Notes under the pieces: generated by a model
Databases searched by the model: none
What the model was told of the DNA's origin: nothing
What the model saw: only the letters and a program-made list of their open reading frames with translations
IMG/VR virus record: IMGVR_UViG_3300032296_001709
Location: 1 to 23,959 of that record
Source of the DNA: a virus
Reading direction: 5' to 3' (one strand)
Length of the DNA stretch: 23,959 bases
Made by a program: the position numbers and the translations under genes
In this document: in pieces, positions 2,503 through 23,959 of the stretch
How positions within the stretch are numbered: the stretch's first letter is position 1
Layout: every line of letters begins with the position of its first letter

Positions 2503-3836
2503 GACTTCTAGACCGCCTCCGAAATGCCGGTGAACCCGAGCGTTCCTATAGCAACGGACTCACTTTTGAAGATGTCCTCGCCATGTTTTCTTTCAACGGA
2601 AACGTTTATCAGGGGATGGCTTCCCCGTTACGGGCACCAGGGCAGGCAGTCTCCGCCAACTTCTCCGGATATGTCCAAGGCGTCTACAACTCTTCTGGAG
2701 TTGTCGCCGGCGCTATCACAGCGCGCGCTTTGTTGATGTCTCAGATTCGGTTTCAGTGGCGTTCGTTGTTGCAAGGCGAAACAGGAAGACTGTTCGGCAA
2801 CACTGAGCTTTCCATTCTTGAACGCCCTGGCGATCTGACACGCGCCGAACTTCTTTACACGGCCGAACAACATAACAGTCTCGCCGGCAATGCCTTCTTT
2901 TACCGCAATGGCGGACAGTTGAAACTTTTGCGTCCGGATTGGGTCACAATCGTTTTCGGTTCCCTCGAGGGTGACATCGACCCAACTACCAGTCTTGACG
3001 CCGAACTTGTCGGCTACACATATCAGCCGGGTGGCCCGACAACTAAAAACGATCCAATCTTTTTGGCACCCTCCCAGGTTGCACATTGGAAACCTGAACC
3101 GGACCCGATGTTCTGGTGGAGAGGCCAATCATGGATTGGTTCGGTGCTTTCGGAAATCACAACCGACCGGCAAGCCACAGAGTTCAAATCAAAGTTTTTT
3201 GCTAATGCCGCAACACCACAATTGATTGTCACCCTCGACCCGCACACCACACAGCAACAGGCCACAGATATCGCCGGAGTCATCAATCAGCGCCATGAAG
3301 GTTCCGCCAACGCCTACAAAACTCTTGTTTTGGGTGGCGGAGCTGATGTCACAGTCGCCGGTTCGAATCTTCAACAACTCGACTTGAAAAACACTCAAGG
3401 CGTCGACGAAACCCGAATTGCGCTCAGATCCCGAGTGCCGGCCACTGTTCTCGGCATTTCCGAAGGACTGGCAGGATCCGCTTTGAACGCCGGCAATTAT
3501 TCTCAAACCCGGCGCCTCTGGTCTGATGCATGGTTCACCCCCACAGCACAGAACCTGTGTGCCGCCATGGAACGGATCCTTGCCTTACCGGTCGGCACCC
3601 CAGCGGAACTTTCCTTCGATCAATCCCAAATCATGTTCCTCCAAGAGGATCGCAAAGACGAAGCGGAAATTAGGGCTACACAGGCGTCATCGATGCGGCA
3701 ACTTGTCGAAGCCGGTTATGAACCGTCCACAGTCACAAAGTTCATTGAAACCGGGGATTCCACAGTGCTCACCCATACAGGCGTTTTCAGTGTTCAGTTG
3801 CAAGCCCCAACAAATGGTGAATCCGATGCCGTATGA
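2499..3836 (+). CDS. Portal protein (HK97 family)
   Basis: The 445-aa product is the dodecameric ring at the capsid vertex through which DNA is packaged and to which the tail attaches. Family features include the start RLLDRLRNAG, the segment KFFANAATPQLIVTL near residues 232-246 and the conserved block LGISEGLAGSALNAGNYSQT (about 317-336) typical of HK97-type portals. Length and position between terminase and protease are as expected. The start ATG 2499 overlaps the stop of the small membrane protein. The C-terminus overlaps the next gene by about ten bases. The tail is rich in Glu, Thr and Ser, as often seen. Confidence 0.92.
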   Translation: MRLLDRLRNAGEPERSYSNGLTFEDVLAMFSFNGNVYQGMASPLRAPGQAVSANFSGYVQGVYNSSGVVAGAITARALLMSQIRFQWRSLLQGETGRLFGNTELSILERPGDLTRAELLYTAEQHNSLAGNAFFYRNGGQLKLLRPDWVTIVFGSLEGDIDPTTSLDAELVGYTYQPGGPTTKNDPIFLAPSQVAHWKPEPDPMFWWRGQSWIGSVLSEITTDRQATEFKSKFFANAATPQLIVTLDPHTTQQQATDIAGVINQRHEGSANAYKTLVLGGGADVTVAGSNLQQLDLKNTQGVDETRIALRSRVPATVLGISEGLAGSALNAGNYSQTRRLWSDAWFTPTAQNLCAAMERILALPVGTPAELSFDQSQIMFLQEDRKDEAEIRATQASSMRQLVEAGYEPSTVTKFIETGDSTVLTHTGVFSVQLQAPTNGESDAV

Positions 3837-5379
3837 AGTGACTGACGATGCGGAAGGATGCGACGGCTACGCCGTAATCAAATCTGAAACCGGTGAAATC
3901 ATGGGTTGTCACCTCAGCGAAGCCGAAGCCGAAGACCAACTCACCGCCCTGAACATTGCCGAATATGGTGAAGACAGTCGGGCAGCTGATTCATACCCCC
4001 CAACTGACGGCATGGTCGATGAAGCCCAAAAAGGTTTGGATTGGCGCAGCGAATACGGGCGAGGCGGAACCCGCATCGGAATCGCGCGCGCCCGTGACAT
4101 AGTCAACCGGCGGCAACTCTCAATCGATACTTGGCGTCGGGTCAAAGCCTATTTTGATCGGCACGAAATCGATAAGAAGGCTGAAGGCTGGTCTCCTGGT
4201 GAAGACGGCTACCCCAGCAATGGCCGGATTGCATGGGCTTTGTGGGGTGGAGACGCAGGGCGCAGCCGTGCAACTGCCATCATGGAAAACGTGAACAATG
4301 ATGAAAGGTCCGTCATGGATGATCAAACCCGAAGCATCGAAGGTATTTATCCTGTGACGCCTTTGCAAAACAAACTTTATGAAGACCTCGAGGAAATCGT
4401 CGACATCTTCGGCAAGTTTGATCAGGGCATCGGAGCGCAGGGCGCCCATTACGCCGGACCCGACGTCAACCCTTTCGCCGCTGAAGGGCTTGTTTGTTCT
4501 AACTGTGCATTTTATGAAGGTCCGCGCGCTTGCGAAATTGTTGAAGGCGACATCGACCCGGCCGCAATATGCAAATTCTGGATCATTCCAGAATCTTTAC
4601 TTTCAAACCCCCCGGCTGAACCCGTTGATGAGGAAGAACCCATGATGGAAATGGAATCAGCACGATCAACCGAAAACCGGTCTGATCTTTACCGTGACGT
4701 CCCATTCGAAATTCGTGCGGCCGAAGACACAGGCGACGGGCTTACCCTCACCGGCTACGCCGCCGTTTTCAACCGATCAACCATGATTGACAACTACGAA
4801 GGCCGCTTCGAAGAACGAATCCGACCAGGGGCATTCAAACGATCCATCAACGCCAAAATGCCAGTCCTGCAATTCGAACACGGCCGGCATCCCCTTCTCG
4901 GATCAATGCCACTCGGACAGATCACAAAACTTCGTGAAGACGAACACGGTTTGTATGTCGAAGCACGACTCGCCGACAATTGGCTGATCCAACCAGTTCG
5001 CGATGCCATCGCCTCCGGATCGATCGACGGAATGAGTTTCCGTTTTCAAGTAGTTCGAGACAGTGTCGACGAATCAGGGAACATCCCCGTTCGGACTTTG
5101 GAAGAAGTCAAACTCCTAGAGTTGGGTCCTGTAGTATTCCCGGCATACGAATCGACAAGCGTTGGCGTACGGTCCGCTGATCTGTCACCATTGTTCTCAC
5201 TGCCCCAAAACGATCGGCAAGCGATCGCCAGGGCACTTGTTCTCGGCACCCAACCTGAACCCGCCAGTGATGGCACTTCGGGACGGCCCGCCGAATCGAA
5301 ACCGGACTCGCATACGCACTCCGGACTTACACCCACCCAGCGCAGCTCACAGTTGCGAGAAATCGAAGGAGTCCTCTAA
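3826..5379 (+). CDS. Multidomain prohead maturation protease
   Basis: The 517-aa product is much longer than a usual HK97 prohead protease (about 200 aa). Residues 1-50 are an acidic module (ETGEIMGCHLSEAEAEDQL). Residues 65-152 form a charged module (LDWRSEYGRGGTRIGIARAR, then SPGEDGYPSNGRIAWALWGG) that I recognise from phage structural genes but cannot name. Residues 224-249 hold four cysteines (C224, C227, C236, C249). Residues 285-450 are the protease, with FEHGRHPLLGS (candidate catalytic H352) and IDGMSFRF (candidate S404). The protease trims scaffold and capsid N-termini during maturation. ATG 3826 is chosen; ATG 3814 is a near-equal alternative, and neither has a good ribosome site. 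An internal start at 4642 could release the protease alone. Confidence 0.85.
   Translation: MPYEVTDDAEGCDGYAVIKSETGEIMGCHLSEAEAEDQLTALNIAEYGEDSRAADSYPPTDGMVDEAQKGLDWRSEYGRGGTRIGIARARDIVNRRQLSIDTWRRVKAYFDRHEIDKKAEGWSPGEDGYPSNGRIAWALWGGDAGRSRATAIMENVNNDERSVMDDQTRSIEGIYPVTPLQNKLYEDLEEIVDIFGKFDQGIGAQGAHYAGPDVNPFAAEGLVCSNCAFYEGPRACEIVEGDIDPAAICKFWIIPESLLSNPPAEPVDEEEPMMEMESARSTENRSDLYRDVPFEIRAAEDTGDGLTLTGYAAVFNRSTMIDNYEGRFEERIRPGAFKRSINAKMPVLQFEHGRHPLLGSMPLGQITKLREDEHGLYVEARLADNWLIQPVRDAIASGSIDGMSFRFQVVRDSVDESGNIPVRTLEEVKLLELGPVVFPAYESTSVGVRSADLSPLFSLPQNDRQAIARALVLGTQPEPASDGTSGRPAESKPDSHTHSGLTPTQRSSQLREIEGVL
4630..4644 (+). promoter_or_regulatory. Possible internal ribosome site and start for protease domain
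   Basis: GAGGAAG at 4630-4636 lies five bases before ATG 4642, in frame with the fusion protein. Starting here would give a 245-residue protein beginning MMEMESARSTE, close to the size of ordinary prohead proteases. The same bases encode an acidic run (DEEEP), so the purine-rich string may be coincidental. A weaker candidate lies at ATG 4315, with AAAGG at 4304-4308. Confidence 0.4.
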
Positions 5380-6782
5380 TGGACGAAAAGAACCTTCGTG
5401 AAGGCGTCGAATACGTCAAGTCGGTCCTTCGCGAAATGCACACAAACGCTGAAGAGCGTTCATTTGATCCAGACGAACAGGCTTCATGGGAAGCCGGCGC
5501 AGAGTATGTCCGCACCTCCGAGGCTGAACTAACCGCCCTCGAGGAGCGTAAAGCTCGCATCGCCGACTTTGCACCGGCCGCAACCGAAACAGGAGACGGA
5601 GCTATGGCCTCCATCAACGTCAACACTCACACCGCGCGCGACGCGTTCGACCACAGCACGCTCCCCCATGAGTCGGGAAGCGAACTTCGTGGCCGTGCCC
5701 TCGACGTCATCGAAAAGCATCTTCCGTCCTTCGTCACCGACGAAGCGCGCGAGAATGCAACGAAGATGCTGGAGAAGCGTTCCGGGGATCTGGACATTGT
5801 GGCCCGCCACATCGTCCGCACCTCTTCGCCGGAGTATCTCGAGGCTTTCGAGGATTACTTCCGCGCCCCTGGTGCCGGGGTTCCCCGCATCCTTTCCAAC
5901 GCTGAGGCCCGCACCGCCATGTCGCTCACCGCGGCAAATGGTGGGGTTCTTGTCCCCCAGTTCCTTGACCCGACAATCGTTCTCACCAACGCCGGTTCTT
6001 CGAACCAGGTTCGCGAGATTTCGAATGTGACGTCAATCACGACTGACCAGTGGGATGGTGTCACCTCCGCCGGAGTGACCGCCGAATGGCTTGCAGAGGG
6101 TACGGAAGCGGCAGACGCCACCCCGACTTTCGTTGGCCCGACGATCAACGTTCACAAGGCGGCAGCGTTTCTGTTCGGTTCGTACGAAGTCATCTCCGAT
6201 TCGGGTTTCAACGAGGTTGGCGCACTCATCGCCGACGCTCGCGACCGTCTCGAGGAGGCCGCGCACATCAACGGAACCGGTTCAGGTCAGCCCTACGGGC
6301 TTATCACCCGCCTGTCTGGCACCGGTCCGGTTGTCAACGGCACGTCCGGCGCAGCCGGTGCGGCATCCCTTGTCGCCGCCGACGCTTACGCCCTGGACAA
6401 TGCCCTTGGCGCCCGATTCCGTCGAAGCGCAGCGTTCCTAGGCCCCCGTTCCACCTACAACGCGCTTCGTACCGCAACCGATGCCAACGCTAACTTTTGG
6501 GCGGCATTCGGTGGCGGAGTCCCAGCACAGATGATCGGATACAACACGTATGCGAACGAATCAATGGACACCACCATTGTTTCCGGATCAAACGATTTTG
6601 TCCTCATCCTCGGGGCGTTCGAAAACTACAAGATCATCGATCGCGTTGGCGTCGAGATCATGTATCAGCCGATGGTCATGGGCGCCAACCAGCGTCCGAC
6701 CGGACAGGCCGGCTGGTTCGCCTTCTGGCGTACCGGCGCAGACGTCCTTACCTCCAACGCCTTCAAGGTTCTGAAGGTCTGA
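5379..6782 (+). CDS. Major capsid protein (HK97 fold)
   Basis: The 467-aa product forms the icosahedral shell. The first roughly 75 residues are charged and helical, like the delta/scaffold region that the prohead protease removes. The core includes GGVLVPQFLDPTIV (about 187-200), FLFGSYEVISDSG (about 264-276) and the C-terminal MVMGANQRPTGQAGWFAFWR region, all typical of HK97-type capsids. GAAGGAG at 5365-5371 lies seven bases before ATG 5379, which overlaps the previous stop (TAATG). Codon use is distinct: nine of ten Lys codons are AAG, against 8 of 25 in the next gene, which fits very high expression. An internal ATG at 5604 with AGGAG eight bases upstream could give a form lacking the first 75 residues. 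Confidence 0.93.
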   Translation: MDEKNLREGVEYVKSVLREMHTNAEERSFDPDEQASWEAGAEYVRTSEAELTALEERKARIADFAPAATETGDGAMASINVNTHTARDAFDHSTLPHESGSELRGRALDVIEKHLPSFVTDEARENATKMLEKRSGDLDIVARHIVRTSSPEYLEAFEDYFRAPGAGVPRILSNAEARTAMSLTAANGGVLVPQFLDPTIVLTNAGSSNQVREISNVTSITTDQWDGVTSAGVTAEWLAEGTEAADATPTFVGPTINVHKAAAFLFGSYEVISDSGFNEVGALIADARDRLEEAAHINGTGSGQPYGLITRLSGTGPVVNGTSGAAGAASLVAADAYALDNALGARFRRSAAFLGPRSTYNALRTATDANANFWAAFGGGVPAQMIGYNTYANESMDTTIVSGSNDFVLILGAFENYKIIDRVGVEIMYQPMVMGANQRPTGQAGWFAFWRTGADVLTSNAFKVLKV

Positions 6783-6800
6783 GCGTCTGAAAAGAAGTGA

Positions 6801-6836
6801 ACCGGGCCTCTCAGCGTCGGGGCTGAGAGGCCCGGT
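6801..6836 (+). terminator. Strong hairpin after the capsid gene
   Basis: ACCGGGCCTCTCAGC at 6801-6815 pairs perfectly with 6822-6836 around a 6-base loop GTCGGG. The 15-bp stem starts 18 bases after the capsid stop. No T-run follows (the next bases are CCACAACTCC). It may therefore be an mRNA 3'-end stabiliser or a partial terminator that lowers expression of downstream genes relative to capsid. Such hairpins are common after phage major capsid genes. Confidence 0.6.
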
Positions 6837-6846
6837 CCACAACTCC

Positions 6847-6879
6847 CCCCGATATTTCCCCGATATTTCCCCGACATCC
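6847..6879. repeat. 11-bp tandem repeat before glycosyltransferase gene
   Basis: CCCCGATATTT occurs at 6847-6857 and 6858-6868, followed by a degenerate third unit CCCCGACATCC at 6869-6879. It ends four bases before the AAGGAG ribosome site (6884-6889) of the next gene. It could be a short operator or a replication-slippage product. Confidence 0.7.
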
Positions 6880-6894
6880 CGACAAGGAGCAGTC

Positions 6895-8322
6895 ATGGCA
6901 TCCACCCCGAAGGTCGCCGTTGGCATTATCTACGGCAGTTTCGAACCAGACTTCGTTTTTTCCCTCTTGGCACTCAAATCGTGGGACGACAAAAACAACG
7001 GGGTTCTAGATCATGCCGGTTGGCTTATCGCGCAGGCAGGAACAAACCTGCCCCAACAAAGAAACACAGTCGTCAAAGCGTTTTTAGAAACAGACGCAGA
7101 TTGGCTGTTGTTCATCGACACTGACCAACGATTCGCGTTCAACATTGTCGACCAGCTCCTCGAATCAGCCGACCCCATCGAACGGCCCATCCTGTCGGCC
7201 TTGATCATGGCCGAAAAGTTCAACCCTCATCATCGGATTGTCCCAGCGTGCATCGGTTTCGAAACCCTCGACCCGCCAACCCCACGCGAATATCAAACAA
7301 TCCCCGCCGAACAGCACTGGCAGGTCGGAGCAGTCGGCTCCGGATGTGTCCTAATCCATCGAACCGTTTTCGAAAAGATTTGGGCAGCGAACCCGAAAGA
7401 CGCTCAACCATGGTTCAAATATGTTCAATGGGATTGGGTTGACCCCGACACCGGAAAAACTGTTTATGACATCATGGGCGAAGATTATGTGTTCAGTCTG
7501 CGCGCGCAGGCGTGCGGGTTTCGATGTTATGTCGACACCACAATCGAAGCCGGGCACATAAAGAAACGAACGTTGACGACACGGGACTTTTGGCCTCAAA
7601 TCCCGCCGGAACTCATCCCAATCAAAACCTTTGTGATCATCCCAGTCAAAGACAATTTGAAGATGACGAAGGCTTTGCTACGCCAACTTCATGACCAGGG
7701 CGAACACGACGGCATCCTTGTCCTGGATAACGGTTCAAATCCTGAAACGCGCAAATGGTTAGGCGCTCAAACTTTCGCCAAAGTTTTAGACACCGCCGGA
7801 ATGGGTATCCACGAAATGTGGAATGCCGGCGCACATTGGGCAATGAATCGGCATCCGAAAGCCAACATTGCTTTTCTCAACAATGACATTGTGATTGGTG
7901 AAAAGTTTATTGTCACAATGGCTGAAGCTTTACGATCCGATGATCGTCTTGTGGCCGTCTGCCCCAACTATGACGGACGAGAAGCCCCCGAAAAGGTTGT
8001 TCAGTTGCACGGCATTTGTGCCGACCGCTATGACGGAACCGGCGGCCTCGCCGGATTCGCGTTCATGGTCAAATCCGAATGGTTCCAGGAAGGCTGGCAT
8101 TTTCCGGAGGATTGCAAATGGTGGTTTGGAGACAATGACCTTGTCTTGTCGGTTGACATGGCTGGCGGCTGGTATGGCATGGCAACTGAAACGACTGTGG
8201 AACATATCGACGGAGGTTCAAAAACCGGGGACTGGGAAGATCCCGCCATGCAACAGCAACTTGCGAAAGACAAAGCCGCTTTTATGCGTCGATGGGCGCG
8301 TCATGGGGTTCAGGTTCAATGA
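6895..8322 (+). CDS. Tandem-domain glycosyltransferase
   Basis: The 475-aa protein appears to contain two GT-A type glycosyltransferase domains that transfer sugars from nucleotide-sugar donors. Domain 1 (about 1-235) has FIDTDQRF, a DxD-type metal/sugar-nucleotide motif, preceded by LPQQRNTVVKAFLETDADW, and a later GEDYVFSLRAQACGF typical of the catalytic Glu-Asp region. Domain 2 (about 242-475) begins KTFVIIPVKDN and has LVLDNGSNPETR, AFLNNDIVIG (an NND in the DxD position) and WWFGDNDLVLS. AAGGAG at 6884-6889 supports ATG 6895. It opens a five-gene coupled cassette right after the capsid gene. The acceptor is unknown; capsid or tail protein, or a host glycan, are inferences. Confidence 0.8.
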   Translation: MASTPKVAVGIIYGSFEPDFVFSLLALKSWDDKNNGVLDHAGWLIAQAGTNLPQQRNTVVKAFLETDADWLLFIDTDQRFAFNIVDQLLESADPIERPILSALIMAEKFNPHHRIVPACIGFETLDPPTPREYQTIPAEQHWQVGAVGSGCVLIHRTVFEKIWAANPKDAQPWFKYVQWDWVDPDTGKTVYDIMGEDYVFSLRAQACGFRCYVDTTIEAGHIKKRTLTTRDFWPQIPPELIPIKTFVIIPVKDNLKMTKALLRQLHDQGEHDGILVLDNGSNPETRKWLGAQTFAKVLDTAGMGIHEMWNAGAHWAMNRHPKANIAFLNNDIVIGEKFIVTMAEALRSDDRLVAVCPNYDGREAPEKVVQLHGICADRYDGTGGLAGFAFMVKSEWFQEGWHFPEDCKWWFGDNDLVLSVDMAGGWYGMATETTVEHIDGGSKTGDWEDPAMQQQLAKDKAAFMRRWARHGVQVQ

Positions 8323-8951
8323 AACCCAAACTTGCTTTGATGGTTGTAACCGATGGTCGTTGGGACTATCTCCAACGAACTCTCGAGTCCGCCGCTCAAT
8401 GTTTAGATTGGCCTTGGCATCAAAAACTTTTGATTGACGATTCAGGGGAAAAACAAGGGTTCAGCCCTGACGGGTTTGATTTTGTGAAAAACATGCCTCG
8501 ACGCGGTTTGGCCGGGGCGATTCAATCCGGTTGGGACGCTATTGACTCGGAAGTGGATTACGTCTTCCACCTCGAGGACGATTTCATTTTCCCTGATGTC
8601 GTAGACCTTGAACTCATGATTGAATTGTTGGAATACGAACCGGAACTCGCCCAAATCGCCTTGTTGCGTCAGCCCTGGTCTCCCCAGGAACAACAAGCCG
8701 GCGGAATCTATGGGGTAGACCCCGTCCGGTTCAAAAATAAATATGGTTTTGTCGAACAACGGCACCTTTTCACATTCAACCCGTGTCTTTATCCGGCTTC
8801 TATCACACGCGAATATGAGGCAGGTTTAGAAGCCGAACTCACTTCGGAATTGTTGAAAGATGGTTGGAGGTTCGGGTATTTGGGCGAACTTGGCGACGAA
8901 CCAAAAACTTTTCACATCGGACTTCGACGCTCAAAGAATTATCAACTATGA
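8319..8951 (+). CDS. Small glycosyltransferase-like protein
   Basis: The 210-aa product starts KPKLALMVVTDGRWDYLQRT, which matches the first strand and helix of family-2-like glycosyltransferases. It has LLIDDSGEKQ and VFHLEDDFIFP, where EDD sits in the DxD position. The part after residue 90 is shorter than a full GT-A enzyme, but a GxPKTFHIG-like ending is retained (EPKTFHIGLRRS). ATG 8319 overlaps the previous stop (ATGA), and its own stop overlaps the next ATG. Similar small proteins occur beside glycosyltransferases in actinophages. The sugar and acceptor cannot be told from sequence. Codon use (TTG, TTT, AAA) is like the preceding gene and unlike capsid. Confidence 0.7.
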   Translation: MKPKLALMVVTDGRWDYLQRTLESAAQCLDWPWHQKLLIDDSGEKQGFSPDGFDFVKNMPRRGLAGAIQSGWDAIDSEVDYVFHLEDDFIFPDVVDLELMIELLEYEPELAQIALLRQPWSPQEQQAGGIYGVDPVRFKNKYGFVEQRHLFTFNPCLYPASITREYEAGLEAELTSELLKDGWRFGYLGELGDEPKTFHIGLRRSKNYQL

Positions 8952-9526
8952 GTCCGGTAGTTGTTCTTTGTGCTGGTGGGCATGGGCAAGATATCGCCGC
9001 CATTTTGAAAGATGCCGGCCAGCCGTTCGCCGGATACTTAGACGACGAAGTCGACGGGCCCGACATTCTCGGCCCCTGCATCGATCTTCATTTATATGAC
9101 CGCTACCTAATCGGGCACAACAACTCTCGAATTCGAGAAGCATTAGACCGGGCTGAAGGAGCAGCGACAGCCATACACCCTTCAGCGGCCGTTCATTCGA
9201 CGCTACAGGCCCTTCCTGGTGTCGTAGTAGGGCAACACGCCACCATCGGCCCCAAAACCCGTCTAGGGCGCCACACACACATCAACGGCAACGTCTTCAT
9301 CACACGCGCGCAAATCGGCGATTTCGTCACCATCGGACCAGGGGCCACGATCTGTGGACACGTCACCATCGGGGCCGGCGCCCAAATCGGCGCAGGAGCT
9401 GTGATTTCCAACCTGGCCGAAATAGGGCCACGGGCCACAATTGGCGCCGGCACCGTTGTTTTACCTCGACAGAACATTCCACCAAACTCCACATGGGTCG
9501 GAGTCCCGGCAAGGCGGATCAAATGA
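8948..9526 (+). CDS. NeuD-like sugar O-acetyltransferase
   Basis: The 192-aa protein has the two-part layout of the NeuD/PglD family. The N-terminal part (1-60) has SPVVVLCAGGHGQDIAAIL, a Rossmann-like GGHG motif. From about residue 80 a left-handed beta-helix of hexapeptide repeats follows (VVVGQHATIGPKTRLG, then VTIGPGATICGHVTIG), ending in the usual WVGVPARRIK. Family members acetylate amino-sugars or sialic acids using acetyl-CoA. In this phage it sits between glycosyltransferase genes with ATGA overlaps at both ends, so it probably acetylates the sugar they attach, or its precursor. There is one candidate catalytic His near residue 78 (AIHPSAAVH). The substrate is unknown. Confidence 0.85.
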   Translation: MSPVVVLCAGGHGQDIAAILKDAGQPFAGYLDDEVDGPDILGPCIDLHLYDRYLIGHNNSRIREALDRAEGAATAIHPSAAVHSTLQALPGVVVGQHATIGPKTRLGRHTHINGNVFITRAQIGDFVTIGPGATICGHVTIGAGAQIGAGAVISNLAEIGPRATIGAGTVVLPRQNIPPNSTWVGVPARRIK

Positions 9527-10272
9527 AAACCGTGGCAATCACAATGGTTCGAGACGAAGAAGACGTCATCGACTGGACAATCGATCATCTTCTCAACCAG
9601 GGAATCGACCACATCATCGTCGCCGACAACCTCTCTGTAGACGAAACGCCCTGGAAACTCGCAGCCCTCGCCAACACCGGACAAATCACAATCATCCAAG
9701 ACGAAGAACCCGGCTACTACCAGGACGAAAAAATGACCCGGTTAGCCCACATGGCGGCCGACCAGTTCGAAGCCGAATGGGTTCTCCCCTTCGACGCCGA
9801 CGAATACTGGTATTGGACCGGCGGCACCCTCGCCGAATTCTTCAGCAAAACCACCGCCGACATCATCACCGCTACCGGCTGGGACCACATCGCCACCGAC
9901 GACGACGACCCCACCGAACTCAACCCGTTCCGAAGGATCATCCGCCGCCGCCAAAAACCCCAAAAAATGGGCAAAGTAGCGTTCCGATATCACCCCGGCA
10001 TTCACATCGATTTTGGAAACCATTTCCTTTTCAACCATCCCGGCCGACAAGCTCAGGCCCTCAATTATCGCCACTACCAATATCGATCCTTCGAACAACT
10101 CATCAGCAAAGCCCGCAACGGAGCCGCCGCCTACAACGCCACCACCCTCCACCCCACCTACGGGGCGCACTGGCGGCAACTCGGAAACCTCAACGACGCT
10201 GAACTATGGACCACCTGGCGGAAACTATGCGAAGAAACCGGCCTCATCAACGATCCGGCCCCCATGCCATGA
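9523..10272 (+). CDS. Glycosyltransferase, family-2-like (PF13704 type)
   Basis: The 249-aa protein begins MKTVAITMVRDEEDVIDWTI and continues GIDHIIVADNLSVDETP, the pattern of the Glyco_tranf_2_4 group (an N/RDEE motif, then D-N-x-S-x-D-x-T). WVLPFDADEYWYW near residues 86-98 supplies the DxD motif. Length is typical. ATGA overlaps link it to the acetyltransferase upstream and the next glycosyltransferase downstream. The codon use here is markedly C-ending (GCC, ACC, ATC) compared with the two genes before, suggesting a different history for this part of the cassette. The acceptor is unknown. Confidence 0.85.
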   Translation: MKTVAITMVRDEEDVIDWTIDHLLNQGIDHIIVADNLSVDETPWKLAALANTGQITIIQDEEPGYYQDEKMTRLAHMAADQFEAEWVLPFDADEYWYWTGGTLAEFFSKTTADIITATGWDHIATDDDDPTELNPFRRIIRRRQKPQKMGKVAFRYHPGIHIDFGNHFLFNHPGRQAQALNYRHYQYRSFEQLISKARNGAAAYNATTLHPTYGAHWRQLGNLNDAELWTTWRKLCEETGLINDPAPMP

Positions 10273-10943
10273 CCGTCGCAGTCATCATCCCCACCTTCAA
10301 CCGGCTTGAACTGACACAAAACTGTCTCAACTCCATCGCCAGACACGACCCGATCTACGAACTCATCATCGTCGACAACGGATCCACAGACGGAACCGAT
10401 CAACTCGCCACCATCGCCCTTGAAACTAATAAAGGTTTCGCCTATGCCTGCAACGCCGGGGCCGACCTCGCAACATCAGACCGCCTTATCTTCCTCAACA
10501 ATGACACCATCGTTCACCCCAACTGGACATCATTTACCGAACTTCTAGACGAACCTGAAATCGGAGTAGTGGGGCCGAAACTCATCTACCCCGACTGCCA
10601 AATCCAATCCGCCGGAATCGCCGTTGACTTCACACGGCCCCCAGGATTAGAAGCCTGGAACCTAAACACAGATTGGGCAACCACCCCCGCCGACGTTGAC
10701 GCCATCACCGGGGCATGTCTCGGCATCCGAAAAGAACTATTCCACCAACTCGGAGGCTTCGATATCGGGTACTGGAACGGCTACGAAGACGTCGACCTCT
10801 GCCTCGCATCCATACAAAAAGGATTCCGCAACGTCTACGATCCAAGGGCAACTGTGACCCATCTAGAGTCCCAATCCGGTCCGGCACGTTGGGCCGCCGT
10901 CACTGAGAACGTGACCCGACTTCGAAACAAATGGAGCCAATAA
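10269..10943 (+). CDS. Glycosyltransferase family 2
   Basis: The 224-aa protein is a textbook GT2 domain. TVAVIIPTFNRLELTQNCL opens the Rossmann-like fold, LIIVDNGSTDGT binds nucleotide, GFAYACNAG and FLNNDTIVHP give the metal-binding NND, and GYWNGYEDVDLCLA (about 167-180) supplies the catalytic acidic residues of rhamnosyl-type GT2 enzymes. The closest general types are rhamnosyl or N-acetylglucosaminyl transferases, but the donor cannot be told from sequence. ATG 10269 overlaps the previous stop. Its stop overlaps the head-tail connector start (TAATG), so the cassette is spliced directly into the structural operon without a gap. Confidence 0.9.
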   Translation: MTVAVIIPTFNRLELTQNCLNSIARHDPIYELIIVDNGSTDGTDQLATIALETNKGFAYACNAGADLATSDRLIFLNNDTIVHPNWTSFTELLDEPEIGVVGPKLIYPDCQIQSAGIAVDFTRPPGLEAWNLNTDWATTPADVDAITGACLGIRKELFHQLGGFDIGYWNGYEDVDLCLASIQKGFRNVYDPRATVTHLESQSGPARWAAVTENVTRLRNKWSQ

Positions 10944-11578
10944 TGGCAATCACCAACGGCTACGCCACCCTAAACGACTTCAAAACCTATCTTTTCCCCT
11001 CATCAAATTACGGGACATCCGAAGACCCGCAAATGGAAGCCGCGATCGAAGCCGCATCGCGAAGCATCGACGCCTACACCTCAAGAAGGTTTTATTCTGA
11101 TTCCACAGTTAGCGCGCGCGTCTACTACGCAGACAGTCCGATCCGTTGCGTCATCGACGATTTCTCAACCATCACAGGGTTGATTATAAAAACCGATACT
11201 GGCGATAATGGCACTTACGATCAGACGTGGGATAGCACCGAATATGTTTTGGAACCCATCAACAGCGAAATCGGTGGCATTTCCGGTCAGCCTTACAACA
11301 CCATCATTGCCACGATCCCCAAAATGTTTCCTACAACCGGTCGACGCCCTCGAGTCCAAGTAACGGCCAAATGGGGTTGGGCCGCTGTCCCCAACACTAT
11401 TTTTCAGTCGTGCCTTATCCAGGCGGCAAGGGTTTATCGTCGGGCACAAACCCCCGAAGGGTTCGCAGCTGGCGAAGGATTCGGCGCCATCCGAGTTTCA
11501 ACACGCCTCGACCCTGACGTCCAAATGATGATCGCCCCATATCGTCGACAAGGCGGACAAGGTCTGGTCATCGGATGA
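10943..11578 (+). CDS. Head-tail connector / adaptor protein
   Basis: The 211-aa product resembles the gp6-like head-tail connectors that form a ring under the portal. AITNGYATLNDFKTYL at the N-terminus and AAIEAASRSIDAYTSRRFYS are typical of actinophage connectors. The C-terminal half, with ARVYRRAQTPEGFAAGEGFG and DPDVQMMIAPYRR, also fits. ATG 10943 is chosen over the in-frame ATG 10931 because GGAG at 10933-10936 is spaced six bases from it. The previous stop overlaps the start, and its own stop overlaps the next ATG. The sequence between residues 60 and 140 is Tyr/Thr-rich, with the beta character common in these proteins. Confidence 0.8.
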   Translation: MAITNGYATLNDFKTYLFPSSNYGTSEDPQMEAAIEAASRSIDAYTSRRFYSDSTVSARVYYADSPIRCVIDDFSTITGLIIKTDTGDNGTYDQTWDSTEYVLEPINSEIGGISGQPYNTIIATIPKMFPTTGRRPRVQVTAKWGWAAVPNTIFQSCLIQAARVYRRAQTPEGFAAGEGFGAIRVSTRLDPDVQMMIAPYRRQGGQGLVIG

Positions 11579-11970
11579 ACCTCGCATCAGTTAGGGCCGG
11601 CATCACCAACACACTCCAAAACATCAACAACCTCCGCATTTACGAATGGATCCCCTCCCAAATTTCACCGCCCGCCGCTGTGGTTTCACTCGGAACAGGT
11701 CAATTCGACTCCGACAACCTTGACGGAATGCTTGTCGGCTACGGAGTCCTGGTGATGCTCACCAGGGCAGACGACCAAAAAGGTCAGGAACGCCTTGACG
11801 AATTTTTAGGGCAGGGCACAAACTCGATTTATCATGTCATCGACGCAAACCCCTCTCTGAACGGGGCTTGTGACTCATGTCGGGTAACCAGTTGGAACAA
11901 CCCCGGGACTTTCAACATTGGCGGAATCGAATATTTGGGGGTCGAAGTAACCCTCGAGGTTCTCGGCTGA
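11575..11970 (+). CDS. Tail terminator / neck protein candidate
   Basis: The 131-aa product starts MNLASVRAGITNTLQNINNL, contains SPPAAVVSLGTGQFDSDNLD, and ends in beta-strands with IEYLGVEVTLEVLG. This pattern is shared by small phage tail-terminator or neck proteins that cap the tail tube and join it to the head. It is linked to the connector by an ATGA overlap and directly abuts the next gene: its stop at 11968-11970 is followed at once by ATG 11971. The assignment is from context and general resemblance, as there is no catalytic motif. It could alternatively be a stopper protein. Confidence 0.65.
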   Translation: MNLASVRAGITNTLQNINNLRIYEWIPSQISPPAAVVSLGTGQFDSDNLDGMLVGYGVLVMLTRADDQKGQERLDEFLGQGTNSIYHVIDANPSLNGACDSCRVTSWNNPGTFNIGGIEYLGVEVTLEVLG

Positions 11971-13005
11971 ATGCGGATTCTCACAGTAGAACCCGGGCCG
12001 GCTTTCTCAGTCGCAGACGTCCACAGAGGCTGGTTGAAAGCCTTTCAACGGACAGGAAACCAAACTCACAACTTCAATCTTGCCGACCGAATCAACTTTT
12101 GCGAAAACGCCATCAGAGGCAAAGTCCCTGAAGCGGAAAAAGGGCATACAGCGGCACGCATGGTCGGAGAACAATTACGCGCCGTCTGTTTCGACTTTTG
12201 GCCCGATCTTGTCGTCATAACTTCAGCGTTTCTGGTACCGCCCGAAACTTTCGACATCATCCGATCACGCGGAATCAAAATCGCAGTAGTCCTCACGGAA
12301 TCACCCTACGAAGACCCTTCACAGCAACCCATCGCCGCCAGAGCCGACATAGCGTTCATCAACGACCCCAGCAACTTGGATCAATACCGGCTCACCCAAC
12401 CAAATACGTTTTACAGCCCCCAGGCGTATGACCCCGAAATTCATTACCGTCGACCAGTCCAAGACGACCTCCGTTCCGATTTCGCCTGGGTAGGAACAGC
12501 GTTCCCTTCCCGAATCGCCTTCTTCGAACAAGTCAACTGGGACGGGATAAACGTTGCTTTAGCCGGAAATTGGCAGGAACTAGACGAAAATTCACCGTTA
12601 CAACAATTCCTCATTCATGATGACGGCTGTTTCGCCAACGAAGACGCCGCAAACCTTTATTCATCAACTCATGTTTCGGCCAACCTATATCGAAAAGAAG
12701 GCGCCGCCGGCTTCGACACCGGATGGGCCATGGGGCCTCGAGAAATTGAACTAGCAGCAACAGGAACCTTTTTTCTTCGCGAACCCCGCCCCGAGTCCGA
12801 CCATGTCCTCCCCATGCTTCCTTCATTCGCAAACGCCGAAGACTTTGGTGAGAAACTAGGATGGTGGCTTCACCATCCCCAGCAACGCGAAGCAGCAGCG
12901 TTGAAAGCCCGAAACGCAGTAGCGGACCGGACCTTCGACAATAATGTCCGGCAAATGCTGGAACATGTCTCAGCTCTTCCGACCATCCCGACGGGCCGGC
13001 AGTAA
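11971..13005 (+). CDS. CgeB-like glycosyltransferase
   Basis: The 344-aa protein looks like a GT-B type glycosyltransferase of the CgeB/Glyco_trans_1_2 kind. The N-terminal domain has MRILTVEPGPAFS and FWPDLVVITSAFLVPPETFD. A middle part reads KIAVVLTESPYEDP and then DFAWVGTAFPSRIAFF. The C-terminal motif GPREIELAATGTFFLREP (about 254-271) corresponds to the conserved donor-binding R-x-x-E segment near the end of this family. It has no gap from the tail-terminator-like gene and lies 33 bases before the major tail protein gene, so it is embedded among tail genes, away from the main sugar cassette. Its location suggests tail-tube decoration, but the acceptor is inferred only. Confidence 0.8.
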   Translation: MRILTVEPGPAFSVADVHRGWLKAFQRTGNQTHNFNLADRINFCENAIRGKVPEAEKGHTAARMVGEQLRAVCFDFWPDLVVITSAFLVPPETFDIIRSRGIKIAVVLTESPYEDPSQQPIAARADIAFINDPSNLDQYRLTQPNTFYSPQAYDPEIHYRRPVQDDLRSDFAWVGTAFPSRIAFFEQVNWDGINVALAGNWQELDENSPLQQFLIHDDGCFANEDAANLYSSTHVSANLYRKEGAAGFDTGWAMGPREIELAATGTFFLREPRPESDHVLPMLPSFANAEDFGEKLGWWLHHPQQREAAALKARNAVADRTFDNNVRQMLEHVSALPTIPTGRQ

Positions 13006-13038: not shown

Positions 13039-13443
13039 ATGGCACGTCGCCACGGCCGCAACGGTCGCCTTTATCTCGGCATTGCTACCAGTGCTGCCGC
13101 CCCGTCTTCTGTCGCATTCCTCAAGCAGTGGTCAGCGGAGTTTGCCGTAGACACCGCTGAAGTCACGTCATTCGGTGACACAAACAAAGTCTATGTTTCG
13201 GGTCTCCCTGACGCTCAGGGCAGCTTCTCCGGATACTTCGACGACGCCACCGCTCAGTCCTACACCGCCGCCGTCGATGGTGATGCGCGCAAGTTTTACT
13301 TGTATCCCGACATCACTAACGCTCCGACCGTGTATTGGTACGGAACCGGCTTCTTCGACTTCTCAGTCGATTCGCCCGTCGACGGTCCCATCACCGTTTC
13401 GGGCAGCTGGCGCGCCGCCAGCACCATCGCCAAGAACGGCTGA
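13039..13443 (+). CDS. Major tail protein
   Basis: The 134-aa protein is likely the tail-tube subunit. It is beta-rich with an immunoglobulin-like ending (PITVSGSWRAAS). It has the typical small-MTP phrases LKQWSAEFAVDTAEVTSFGD and SFSGYFDDATAQSY that describe a test for a localised field in tube proteins of many actinophages. AAGGAG at 13027-13032 is well placed for ATG 13039, one of the best ribosome sites in the tail region. Three of four Lys codons are AAG, as in capsid. It lies upstream of the G/T chaperones and tape measure, as expected. Its stop overlaps the next start (TGATG). Confidence 0.85.
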   Translation: MARRHGRNGRLYLGIATSAAAPSSVAFLKQWSAEFAVDTAEVTSFGDTNKVYVSGLPDAQGSFSGYFDDATAQSYTAAVDGDARKFYLYPDITNAPTVYWYGTGFFDFSVDSPVDGPITVSGSWRAASTIAKNG

Positions 13444-22495: not shown

Positions 22496-22837
22496 ATGCC
22501 GGCCACATACAACATCACAATTCGGATGGGGGACACGGAAACCATTTCGGTCACCATTCAAGATTCGGCTGGGGCAGCGGTTGACATTTCGGGCCGTAGT
22601 TATGCCGCTCAGATCCGAAGCAACGCCGACGACACAACCGTCTTGGCAACGTTCGCTTGTGCCGTGGTTTCCGGTCCCGCCGGGACTTTGTCTGCAACTT
22701 TGACTTCCACCCAAACAGCGGCCCTTACTCCTGGGGTTGGGGTATGGGATTTGCAGGAAACAAACCCGGTTGGCCCTGTAGTCACGACATTGTTGGCAGG
22801 GCAAGTCACAATTGTTCAGGATGTCACTAGGTCATGA
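22496..22837 (+). CDS. BppU-like tail/baseplate-associated protein
   Basis: The 113-aa protein is beta-rich: MPATYNITIRMGDTETISVT, then QDSAGAAVDISGRSYAAQIR, then LTSTQTAALTPGVGVWDLQE and VTTLLAGQVTIVQDVTR. This resembles the N-terminal BppU/immunoglobulin-like domain of baseplate upper proteins, often found just before tail-fibre genes. AGGGG at 22484-22488 supports ATG 22496. The stop overlaps the next start (ATGA), linking it to the fibre gene. It may connect the fibre to the baseplate; the exact role is not proven. Confidence 0.7.
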   Translation: MPATYNITIRMGDTETISVTIQDSAGAAVDISGRSYAAQIRSNADDTTVLATFACAVVSGPAGTLSATLTSTQTAALTPGVGVWDLQETNPVGPVVTTLLAGQVTIVQDVTRS

Positions 22838-23959
22838 GTGAATCAGTAGTCCTGAAGTTGACTGATGTGACGTTGACGAATACGGAGTCAACGGTCGAAG
22901 TGACGCGCACAGTCCCCGAAATTGTGATCGCTGGCATTGCCGGGCCTGCCGGTCCCGCCGGAGCTGGTGGAGCACTCGGCTACTACGGGGCTTTTTCGGA
23001 TTACACAACCCAAACACCGGTAGCAGATACCGCAACAGCCATGTTGTTGGGAACGACTGATGAAGCCAACGGGGTTTCAATTGTTTCCGGTTCACAGATT
23101 ACGTTCGCTAATGCTGGAACTTACAATGTGCAATGGTCCGGCCAGTTCGTAAACACTGCAACCGCCGATTGTGATGTTTCCGTATGGTTCAGAAAAAACG
23201 GGGTCGATGTCCCGGGTTCCACAGGGATTGTGAATGTCCCGTCTAAGCACGGGTCTAGTTCGGGCCACGCGTTGCCTTCATGGAACTTTGTGTTGACTGT
23301 CGCCGCGAATGATTACGTCCAGTTTTACTGGTCGTCGCCGTTGACGTCTGTCGCTATCACGACTTTTCCGATTTCTGGTTCACCGACTCGACCGACTACG
23401 GCGAGTCTGGTGGTTACTGCTACGCAGGTCATGTATACGCAAGCCGGCCCGCAAGGCGCGACTGGCCCGCAGGGGTTTCAGGGCAATCAAGGTGTTCAGG
23501 GCAGCCAAGGTGTTCAAGGCACACAAGGTAACCAGGGCGCGCAAGGCAACCAGGGGGCGCAAGGCAGTCAAGGTGTTCAGGGCGTTCAGGGCAGCCAAGG
23601 CGCACAGGGCGCACAGGGCGCACAGGGCACACAAGGCAGTCAAGGTGTTCAGGGCGTTCAGGGCAGCCAAGGCGTTCAGGGCAGCCAAGGCGTTCAGGGC
23701 GCCGATGGGGCACAGGGCGCACAGGGCAGCCAAGGCAATCAAGGCGCACAGGGCGCACAGGGCGCGCAAGGCGCACAGGGCAGCCAAGGCGCACAGGGCG
23801 CCGATGGGGCACAAGGCGCACAAGGCAGCCAAGGCGTTCAGGGCAGTCAAGGCGTCCAAGGCAATCAGGGCGCACAGGGCGCACAGGGCAGCCAAGGCGT
23901 TCAGGGGGCGCAGGGCACCGCCGGCGCGCAGGGCGCACAGGGCAGCCAAGGCGTTCAGG
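22834..23959 (+). CDS. Collagen-like tail fibre, truncated at window end
   Basis: At least 375 residues are open to the window edge. Residues 1-34 are an N-terminal strand region (SVVLKLTDVTLTNTESTVEV). A short collagen-like bit follows (IAGPAGPAGAGG). A C1q/TNF-like jelly-roll region spans about 50-195 (GYYGAFSDYTTQT through PSWNFVLTVAANDYVQFYWS). From residue 205 an uninterrupted Gly-X-Y tract runs to the window end. Collagen-like tracts are known in phage fibres, where they form trimeric shafts. The start overlaps the BppU-like gene stop (ATGA). No stop is visible, so length and C-terminal domain are unknown. Long minus-strand frames over it are shadows. Confidence 0.85.
   Translation, partial: MSESVVLKLTDVTLTNTESTVEVTRTVPEIVIAGIAGPAGPAGAGGALGYYGAFSDYTTQTPVADTATAMLLGTTDEANGVSIVSGSQITFANAGTYNVQWSGQFVNTATADCDVSVWFRKNGVDVPGSTGIVNVPSKHGSSSGHALPSWNFVLTVAANDYVQFYWSSPLTSVAITTFPISGSPTRPTTASLVVTATQVMYTQAGPQGATGPQGFQGNQGVQGSQGVQGTQGNQGAQGNQGAQGSQGVQGVQGSQGAQGAQGAQGTQGSQGVQGVQGSQGVQGSQGVQGADGAQGAQGSQGNQGAQGAQGAQGAQGSQGAQGADGAQGAQGSQGVQGSQGVQGNQGAQGAQGSQGVQGAQGTAGAQGAQGSQGVQ
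23446..23959 (+). repeat. Collagen-like Gly-X-Gln coding repeat
   Basis: There are 57 consecutive Gly-X-Y triplets with no interruption, and Gln at Y in 53 of them; the exceptions are GAT, GAD twice and GTA. X is mainly Ala, Val, Ser, Asn or Thr. An 18-bp unit encoding GSQGVQ (GGC AGC CAA GGC GTT CAG) recurs exactly several times, so the tract has probably grown by block duplication. Ser codons are always followed by CAA, while GTT is mostly followed by CAG. Confidence 0.95.

Follow-up and report, generated by a model that had tools for sequence, protein, structure and literature searches.

A sugar-gene cassette between the capsid and head-tail adaptor genes of an uncultured phage lineage and its proposed role in virion glycosylation

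The phage record IMGVR_UViG_3300032296_001709 of IMG/VR (positions 1 to 23,959; this whole stretch of 23,959 bases is called the window in the following) carries a cassette of sugar genes between its major capsid protein (MCP) gene and its head-tail adaptor gene, and it is probable that the soluble enzymes made from these genes late in infection assemble a glycan on proteins of the virion. The operon is arranged in the order terminase, portal, prohead protease, MCP, the five cassette genes GTa, GTb, LbH, GTc and GTd, head-tail adaptor, tail terminator, GTe, major tail protein, tape measure, tail tip and endolysin, and thus contains six glycosyltransferase (GT) proteins with altogether seven GT domains. 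A head or tail protein as target is favoured by the position of the genes, by the timing of their expression, by the absence of clear membrane segments and by a lineage-wide link of the GTa N-terminal domain to the capsid gene.

The window features listed here from MCP to the major tail protein lie on the plus strand. GTa (6895-8322) consists of two GT-A domains, of which the N-domain belongs to the capsid-linked family, has DTD and GED motifs and matches phrog_34859 (glycosyltransferase, 2e-13), while the C-domain is of the GT2 type with an NND motif (Pfam GT2, 2.3e-9). GTb (8319-8951; longer open reading frame (ORF) from 8292) is a small GT-A-like glycosyltransferase with an LEDD motif (phrog_3047, galactosyltransferase, 2.7e-8; PF00535 at 8.8e-4, below the cut-off). 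It is followed by LbH (8948-9526), a left-handed beta-helix protein of the NeuD/PglD/VioB type in which alignments show no catalytic His (PF00132, Hexapep, 3.7e-17), by GTc (9523-10272; longer ORF from 9493), which has a DADE motif (PF13704, Glyco_tranf_2_4, 6.7e-14), and by the family-2 glycosyltransferase GTd (10269-10943; longer ORF from 10206) with an NND motif (PF00535, 3.8e-20). The original prediction had described a five-gene cassette at 6895-10943, and all five ORFs are real and lie at these coordinates, but the set extends beyond this range, as a sixth glycosyltransferase, the GT-B-type GTe (11971-13005; PF13524, 4.3e-12), is encoded directly before the tail-tube gene. The end-to-end overlaps that had been claimed exist at every inner junction, each of them a 4-nt ATGA overlap, but MCP and GTa are separated by a gap of 112 nt that contains a conserved hairpin. 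With start codons chosen by conservation, the 4-nt overlap recurs across relatives at GTa-GTb (20/20), GTb-LbH (24/25), LbH-GTc (23/23), GTc-GTd (19/19) and adaptor-terminator (18/18), and the sole exception, L015, appears to be an effect of start choice. The GTd-adaptor junction is -1, -4 or -14 in relatives, and GTe starts at the base right after the terminator stop codon in 12/12 close relatives. A PDB sequence search with GTa and GTe gave no match, and the isolate phages searched contained no match to GTe, a partial one of 24-26% to GTa and one of only 25-30% to LbH. An AlphaFold2 model of GTa (pLDDT 42) was set aside.

A search of IMG/VR with GTa yielded 34 related contigs, all close relatives being metagenomic; one contig of 34,865 bases is essentially identical to the window across the shared part. 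The search for the same block in related phages, which had been suggested together with the original prediction, was rewarding: in every related contig that spans the region, down to about 60% protein identity, the gene order is identical and no gene has been lost or gained. A second clade has this order at 79% identity for MCP, about 72% for GTa, 53-57% for GTb, 61-69% for LbH and 63-68% for GTe, and even in L064, with an MCP identity of 56%, GTa still follows MCP. Median pairwise dN/dS values are 0.12 for MCP, 0.08 for GTa, 0.18 for GTb, 0.17 for LbH, 0.21 for GTc, 0.22 for GTd, 0.15 for GTe and 0.08 for the tail tube. With values of 0.08-0.22, the cassette genes are working genes under purifying selection, and since the order also holds in every related contig, the arrangement is not due to chance. 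A decay of the genes was rejected on the basis of the same dN/dS values, and a recent mobile insertion was rejected as well, because order and overlaps persist over deep divergence.

How far does the link to the capsid gene reach? Distant phages (L130-L148), whose MCPs are roughly 30-46% identical, were examined with profiles of the window genes, and in eleven loci of this set MCP is followed at a distance of 0.06-1.3 kb by a homologue of the GTa N-domain that consists of this single domain. L167 carries homologues of the two GTa domains as separate adjacent genes, and GTa therefore looks like a fusion. In L128 and L130, a GTe homologue is encoded between the terminator and tail-tube genes; in L132 it comes after the terminator, and in L164 it immediately precedes the tail tube. 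In 12 diverse aligned members of the N-domain family, Asp79, Asp81, Glu197 and Asp198 are invariant, and the D-x-D and G/S-E-D motifs of GT-A enzymes are present. For a sample that is independent of the capsid, the N-domain alignment was scanned against IMG/VR, and 79 loci from the best 80 of at least 562 relatives were analyzed. In 71 of these 79 loci, the GT is preceded on its own strand by an HK97-type MCP, within 150 nt in 36 and within 1.1 kb in 62, and where at least 3 kb of upstream sequence was available, this was the case in 54 of 56 loci. In L188, one of the two exceptions, the GT follows a MuF-like gene and precedes a scaffold-like gene as judged by reading, and thus is still in the head operon. 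Independently of these loci, a P22-like phage from Manatee Spring has a homologous GT one gene past its coat gene. Gordonia phage Mcklovin, prophiGD02-2 and L133 have no such sugar block at the corresponding place.

These data bear on the idea that the sugar is attached to a tail fibre or to a protein of the tail tip, such as the collagen-like fibre encoded from 22834, and not to the capsid, and that the place beside the capsid gene only provides late timing. Such a fibre is present, GTe adjoins the tail-tube gene, and in the cultured phages LanE43-AprE7 and LanE43-AprF5 (E7 and F5) a homologous GT is located among tail and fibre genes. However, throughout the wider lineage the GTa N-domain family adjoins the capsid gene and not the fibre genes, and also the P22-like phage has its GT by the coat gene. 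We therefore regard the fibre as an unlikely target. The fibre ORF itself (22834-23959) has many GxQ repeats; the window stops inside it, and a longer contig continues to the stop codon.

Downstream of the capsid-linked GT, the distant phages differ from each other in the sugar genes of the interval up to the adaptor gene. In L130, the interval encodes three GTs, a methyltransferase (PF13578) and an FAD oxidoreductase (PF01266), in L137 an NDP-sugar epimerase (PF01370, 1e-29) and a GT2 enzyme along with another GT-like protein and proteins resembling methyltransferases, and the intervals of L132, L138 and L144 look similar by sequence. Among 93 ORFs that follow the GT in 31 contigs, epimerase/dehydratase families account for 10 matches and Methyltransf_23 for 8, and other matches are to GT2, GT-B, C-methyltransferase, RGP, 2OG oxygenase and deacetylase families. 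An epimerase was found in 16/41 contigs, in 15 of them on the strand of the GT and 1.4-5.8 kb downstream of it (distances from contig ranges), and the sixteenth is split over the contig end at a matching distance. The GTa N-domain homologue, together with variable epimerases, methyltransferases and GTs, thus appears to form a capsid-linked sugar island in these distant phages. Literature searches found no capsid-linked sugar island in phages, which is no proof of absence, and location, gene set and hot-spot behaviour of this putative glycosylation locus appear to be new. Sugar genes were also seen in two other settings. The unrelated phage L094 (2394-6141) has a parallel sugar block by head genes: just before the portal gene lie an aminotransferase-like gene, a gene for a NeuD acetyltransferase that has the His, and possibly a GT gene. 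Streptomyces phage KimJongPhill (L154, 3990-6463) has a block outside the structural operon in which two GTs, one of them homologous to the GTa C-domain, are accompanied by a methyltransferase and an oxygenase-like protein.

According to the original prediction, the oligosaccharide could be not only built but also acetylated on the capsid or tail. While the building is the best supported part, with the capsid linkage in 54/56 loci and the variable sugar island in distant phages, the acetylation is called into question by LbH. This supposed ACETYLTRANSFERASE is a relative of the NeuD family (NCBIfam NeuD_NnaD, TIGR03570, 5.9e-38), although with 130.5 bits it remains below the curated cut-off of 160.8 bits, as does the His-bearing NeuD of L094. 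The His of one hexad is the catalytic base of the NeuD/PglD/VioB family. PDB entries 4eaa and 4eab are the H141N and H141A mutants of the perosamine enzyme. In the alignment of this hexad, VioB (7txp) reads LSHGVILGDY and 4m9c reads VAHDCVIGDY, whereas the window and its relatives read IT-RAQIGDF, which is one residue shorter. The His is missing without exception in all aligned cassette homologues, including the 61% clade, with L050 reading IAR-A, whereas the unrelated L094 NeuD retains it (IGHGAQIGDF). At the same time, LbH shares the domain layout of these sugar acetyltransferases and retains the hexapeptide-repeat beta-helix, the N-terminal GGHG motif for nucleotide sugars and the C-terminal GVPAR segment. 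As the hexad lacks its His while GGHG and GVPAR remain, the fold seems to be selected for and the usual catalysis not kept. LbH thus is probably not a canonical acetyltransferase, and a role as scaffold or in nucleotide-sugar binding would be no less likely than some new arrangement for catalysis. It is conceivable, if rather doubtful, that LbH is an active sugar N- or O-acetyltransferase that employs a different catalytic residue, which would fit any target scheme: besides the retained fold and motifs and the purifying selection, His109 and His111 are invariant in near relatives. Against this speak the score below the NeuD_NnaD cut-off, which however also applies to L094, and the hexad that bears the His in VioB, 4m98 and 4m9c but is shortened and without His in every cassette homologue. 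An AlphaFold2 model of LbH had a mean pLDDT of 61 and gave no Foldseek match with E < 0.7, and was set aside.

The gap between MCP and GTa contains a long, strongly covarying hairpin (6797-6840) with 18 pairs and an invariant GTCGGGG loop that is conserved in 12 relatives, in which 215/216 pair cells are formed and both sides have changed in 8/18 pairs. It is followed by CCCCGA[C/T] repeats (6847-6875), complementary to the hairpin loop, which are present in 2-5 copies in 16/16 sequences compared and end near the GTa ribosome-binding site. Hairpin and repeats (within 6783-6894) could possibly constitute a pseudoknot or an attenuator, and the hairpin may set the ratio of capsid protein to enzymes.

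The likely, putative acceptor of the glycan is MCP (5379-6782), a protein with HK97 fold (PF05065, 4.4e-37; phrog_10), and a possible second acceptor is the putatively glycosylated major tail (tube) protein (13039-13443; phrog_10528, 6e-10). Between them are encoded the head-tail adaptor (10943-11578; longer ORF from 10931; phrog_442, 8.3e-14) and the tail terminator (11575-11970; phrog_17840, 1.8e-19). Upstream of MCP, the prohead-protease ORF (3526-5379) begins with a long N-terminal part that precedes the protease domain and has a PHROG match of its own (residues 115-267, phrog_2859). In the mechanism that we propose, the six soluble GT proteins would be made late from the structural operon and would act in the cytoplasm, where they would use nucleotide sugars of the host as donors and build the oligosaccharide directly on newly made virion proteins, most likely on the capsid protein and perhaps, through GTe, on the tail tube. 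The GTa N-domain, which alone recurs at this site in the whole of the wider lineage, would be the most suitable candidate for the transfer of the first sugar to the protein, and the GTa C-domain, GTb, GTc and GTd would then extend the chain, while LbH probably would bind a nucleotide sugar or hold the enzymes together. The virion as target, the order of the steps, the role of LbH and the use of host sugars as donors are what we infer from gene content and arrangement.

In which host would this take place? A near-complete relative, whose ends match those of a second contig of 34,851 bases, has genes for a WhiB transcription factor, an Rpf-like transglycosylase, a prim-pol/AAA protein, a PD-(D/E)XK protein and a collagen-like fibre; the WhiB and Rpf-like genes (L150, 10096-10440 and 13293-13847) are in its second half. 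As WhiB is said to be exclusive to Actinobacteriota (PMC10202952), the host probably is actinobacterial. A scan of genome contigs for the host gave only a distant Nocardia prophage capsid, which is uninformative, and the host assignment thus rests on the WhiB and Rpf-like genes.

Phage glycosyltransferases can convert the serotype of their host. The enzymes might therefore remodel a surface glycan of the host late in infection or after lysogeny, and thereby for example block superinfection or the sticking of progeny to debris. A role at the host surface was also proposed for E7 and F5 (PMC10202952), and variable sugar genes would suit variable host polysaccharides. On the other hand, Gtr-type serotype conversion is carried out by temperate phages with a GtrA flippase and a membrane-anchored GT, and the window lineage displayed none of these features in the checks made: six relatives contained no integrase, no Gtr-type flippase was recognized on reading the ORFs of the near-complete relative, and the GTs have no convincing membrane segments, the peak of 1.71 in GTe being borderline. 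Together with the expression from a late structural operon, this makes a host-surface target improbable. Even less probable, to the point that we give it very little weight, is a glycosylation of the phage DNA for protection from host nucleases, which is a known role of some phage GTs and has been proposed for E7 and F5 as well (PMC10202952). Genes for base modification (hydroxymethylase, thymidylate-synthase homologue, deazaguanine pathway) that could create an acceptor were not recognized among the scanned ORFs of the near-complete relative, in which small ORFs were scanned in part; the genes are located in the head operon, and multi-enzyme, variable, methylating and epimerizing sets suit an oligosaccharide better. 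Both targets thus appear less likely than virion proteins, as no integrase, base-modifying gene or Gtr-type flippase was recognized in the relatives and ORFs scanned.

Virion glycosylation has precedents with which the locus can be compared. Two reports place the glycans of mycobacteriophages at the C-termini of capsid and tail-tube proteins (PMC12619734, PMC11256854), and the system described there, that of Che8 gp108-110 and others (Freeman et al. 2023), resembles the window in that a siphophage of an actinobacterial host, as deduced here, has GT genes in a row and that a glycan is proposed on capsid and tail tube. The three GTs of Che8, of which gp108 by eye has an apparent methyltransferase-like C-terminal half, are however encoded close to the right genome end and thus a long way from the capsid gene, whereas those of the window are in the head-tail operon, and Che8 has no LbH protein. 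The closest analogy for the way of working is the chlorovirus PBCV-1, in which virus-encoded cytoplasmic GTs, with GT and methyltransferase activities that vary between related viruses, build the glycan of the major capsid protein (PMC4691112). As PBCV-1 is an unrelated eukaryotic virus with another capsid, this is an analogy only and does not imply membership. E7 and F5 (OX376640, OX376641) are the first cultured Nanopelagicales phages, and for their GT the authors proposed DNA protection or superinfection control (PMC10202952). They have a GTa N-domain homologue (96.5% probability) and a WhiB gene, but differ from the window by having a single GT. In E7 (L151), this homologue is encoded at 27549-28271, and the published annotation makes no link to the virion.

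Several observations weigh against a glycan on virion proteins. Such a glycan is a prediction from genes. In Che8, Gly-Ser forms the C-terminus of MCP as well as of the tail tube, whereas the window MCP stops with KVLKV where its HK97 domain ends and the tail tube with IAKNG, without an extended or Ser/Thr-ending C-terminus, although the glycan site could be elsewhere. The window GTs also are not orthologues of the Che8 GTs, as profile comparisons with gp108-110 were near zero except for GTd and gp109 (89.9% probability, a weak GT2 superfamily match). In E7 and F5, as mentioned, the homologous GT is among tail genes and not by the capsid gene. Finally, the sampled MCPs, which fall into 25 clusters at 70%, join one cluster at 40% single linkage, and the capsid linkage therefore appears to be that of one old lineage and not of many independent events. 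Glycosylation of virion proteins nevertheless is the reading that we prefer.

Beyond the window, we tentatively suggest that a broad lineage of phages that are uncultured and at least in part actinobacterial possesses a capsid-glycan locus in which an initiating GT is fixed beside the capsid gene and followed by swappable sugar genes, which may result in a group-specific virion glycan, as bacteria vary their O-antigens, and that in the clade of the window a former NeuD-type acetyltransferase may have become a non-catalytic member of the assembly. Reports on the glycosylation of bacteriophage virions are recent, and the effect known from them relates to antibodies of animals, which are hardly what selects for it in environmental phages. 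In case of E7 and F5, virion glycosylation may have to be considered first in view of the data described here. The GTa N-domain after MCP would provide a gene marker by which glycosylated phages can be predicted from sequence. If a sugar locus with variable tailoring enzymes is indeed fixed by the capsid gene across such a large lineage, surface glycans would be a common and diversifying trait of such phages, and their purpose, be it in adsorption, in protection from the host surface or from grazers, or in particle stability, would be directly testable.

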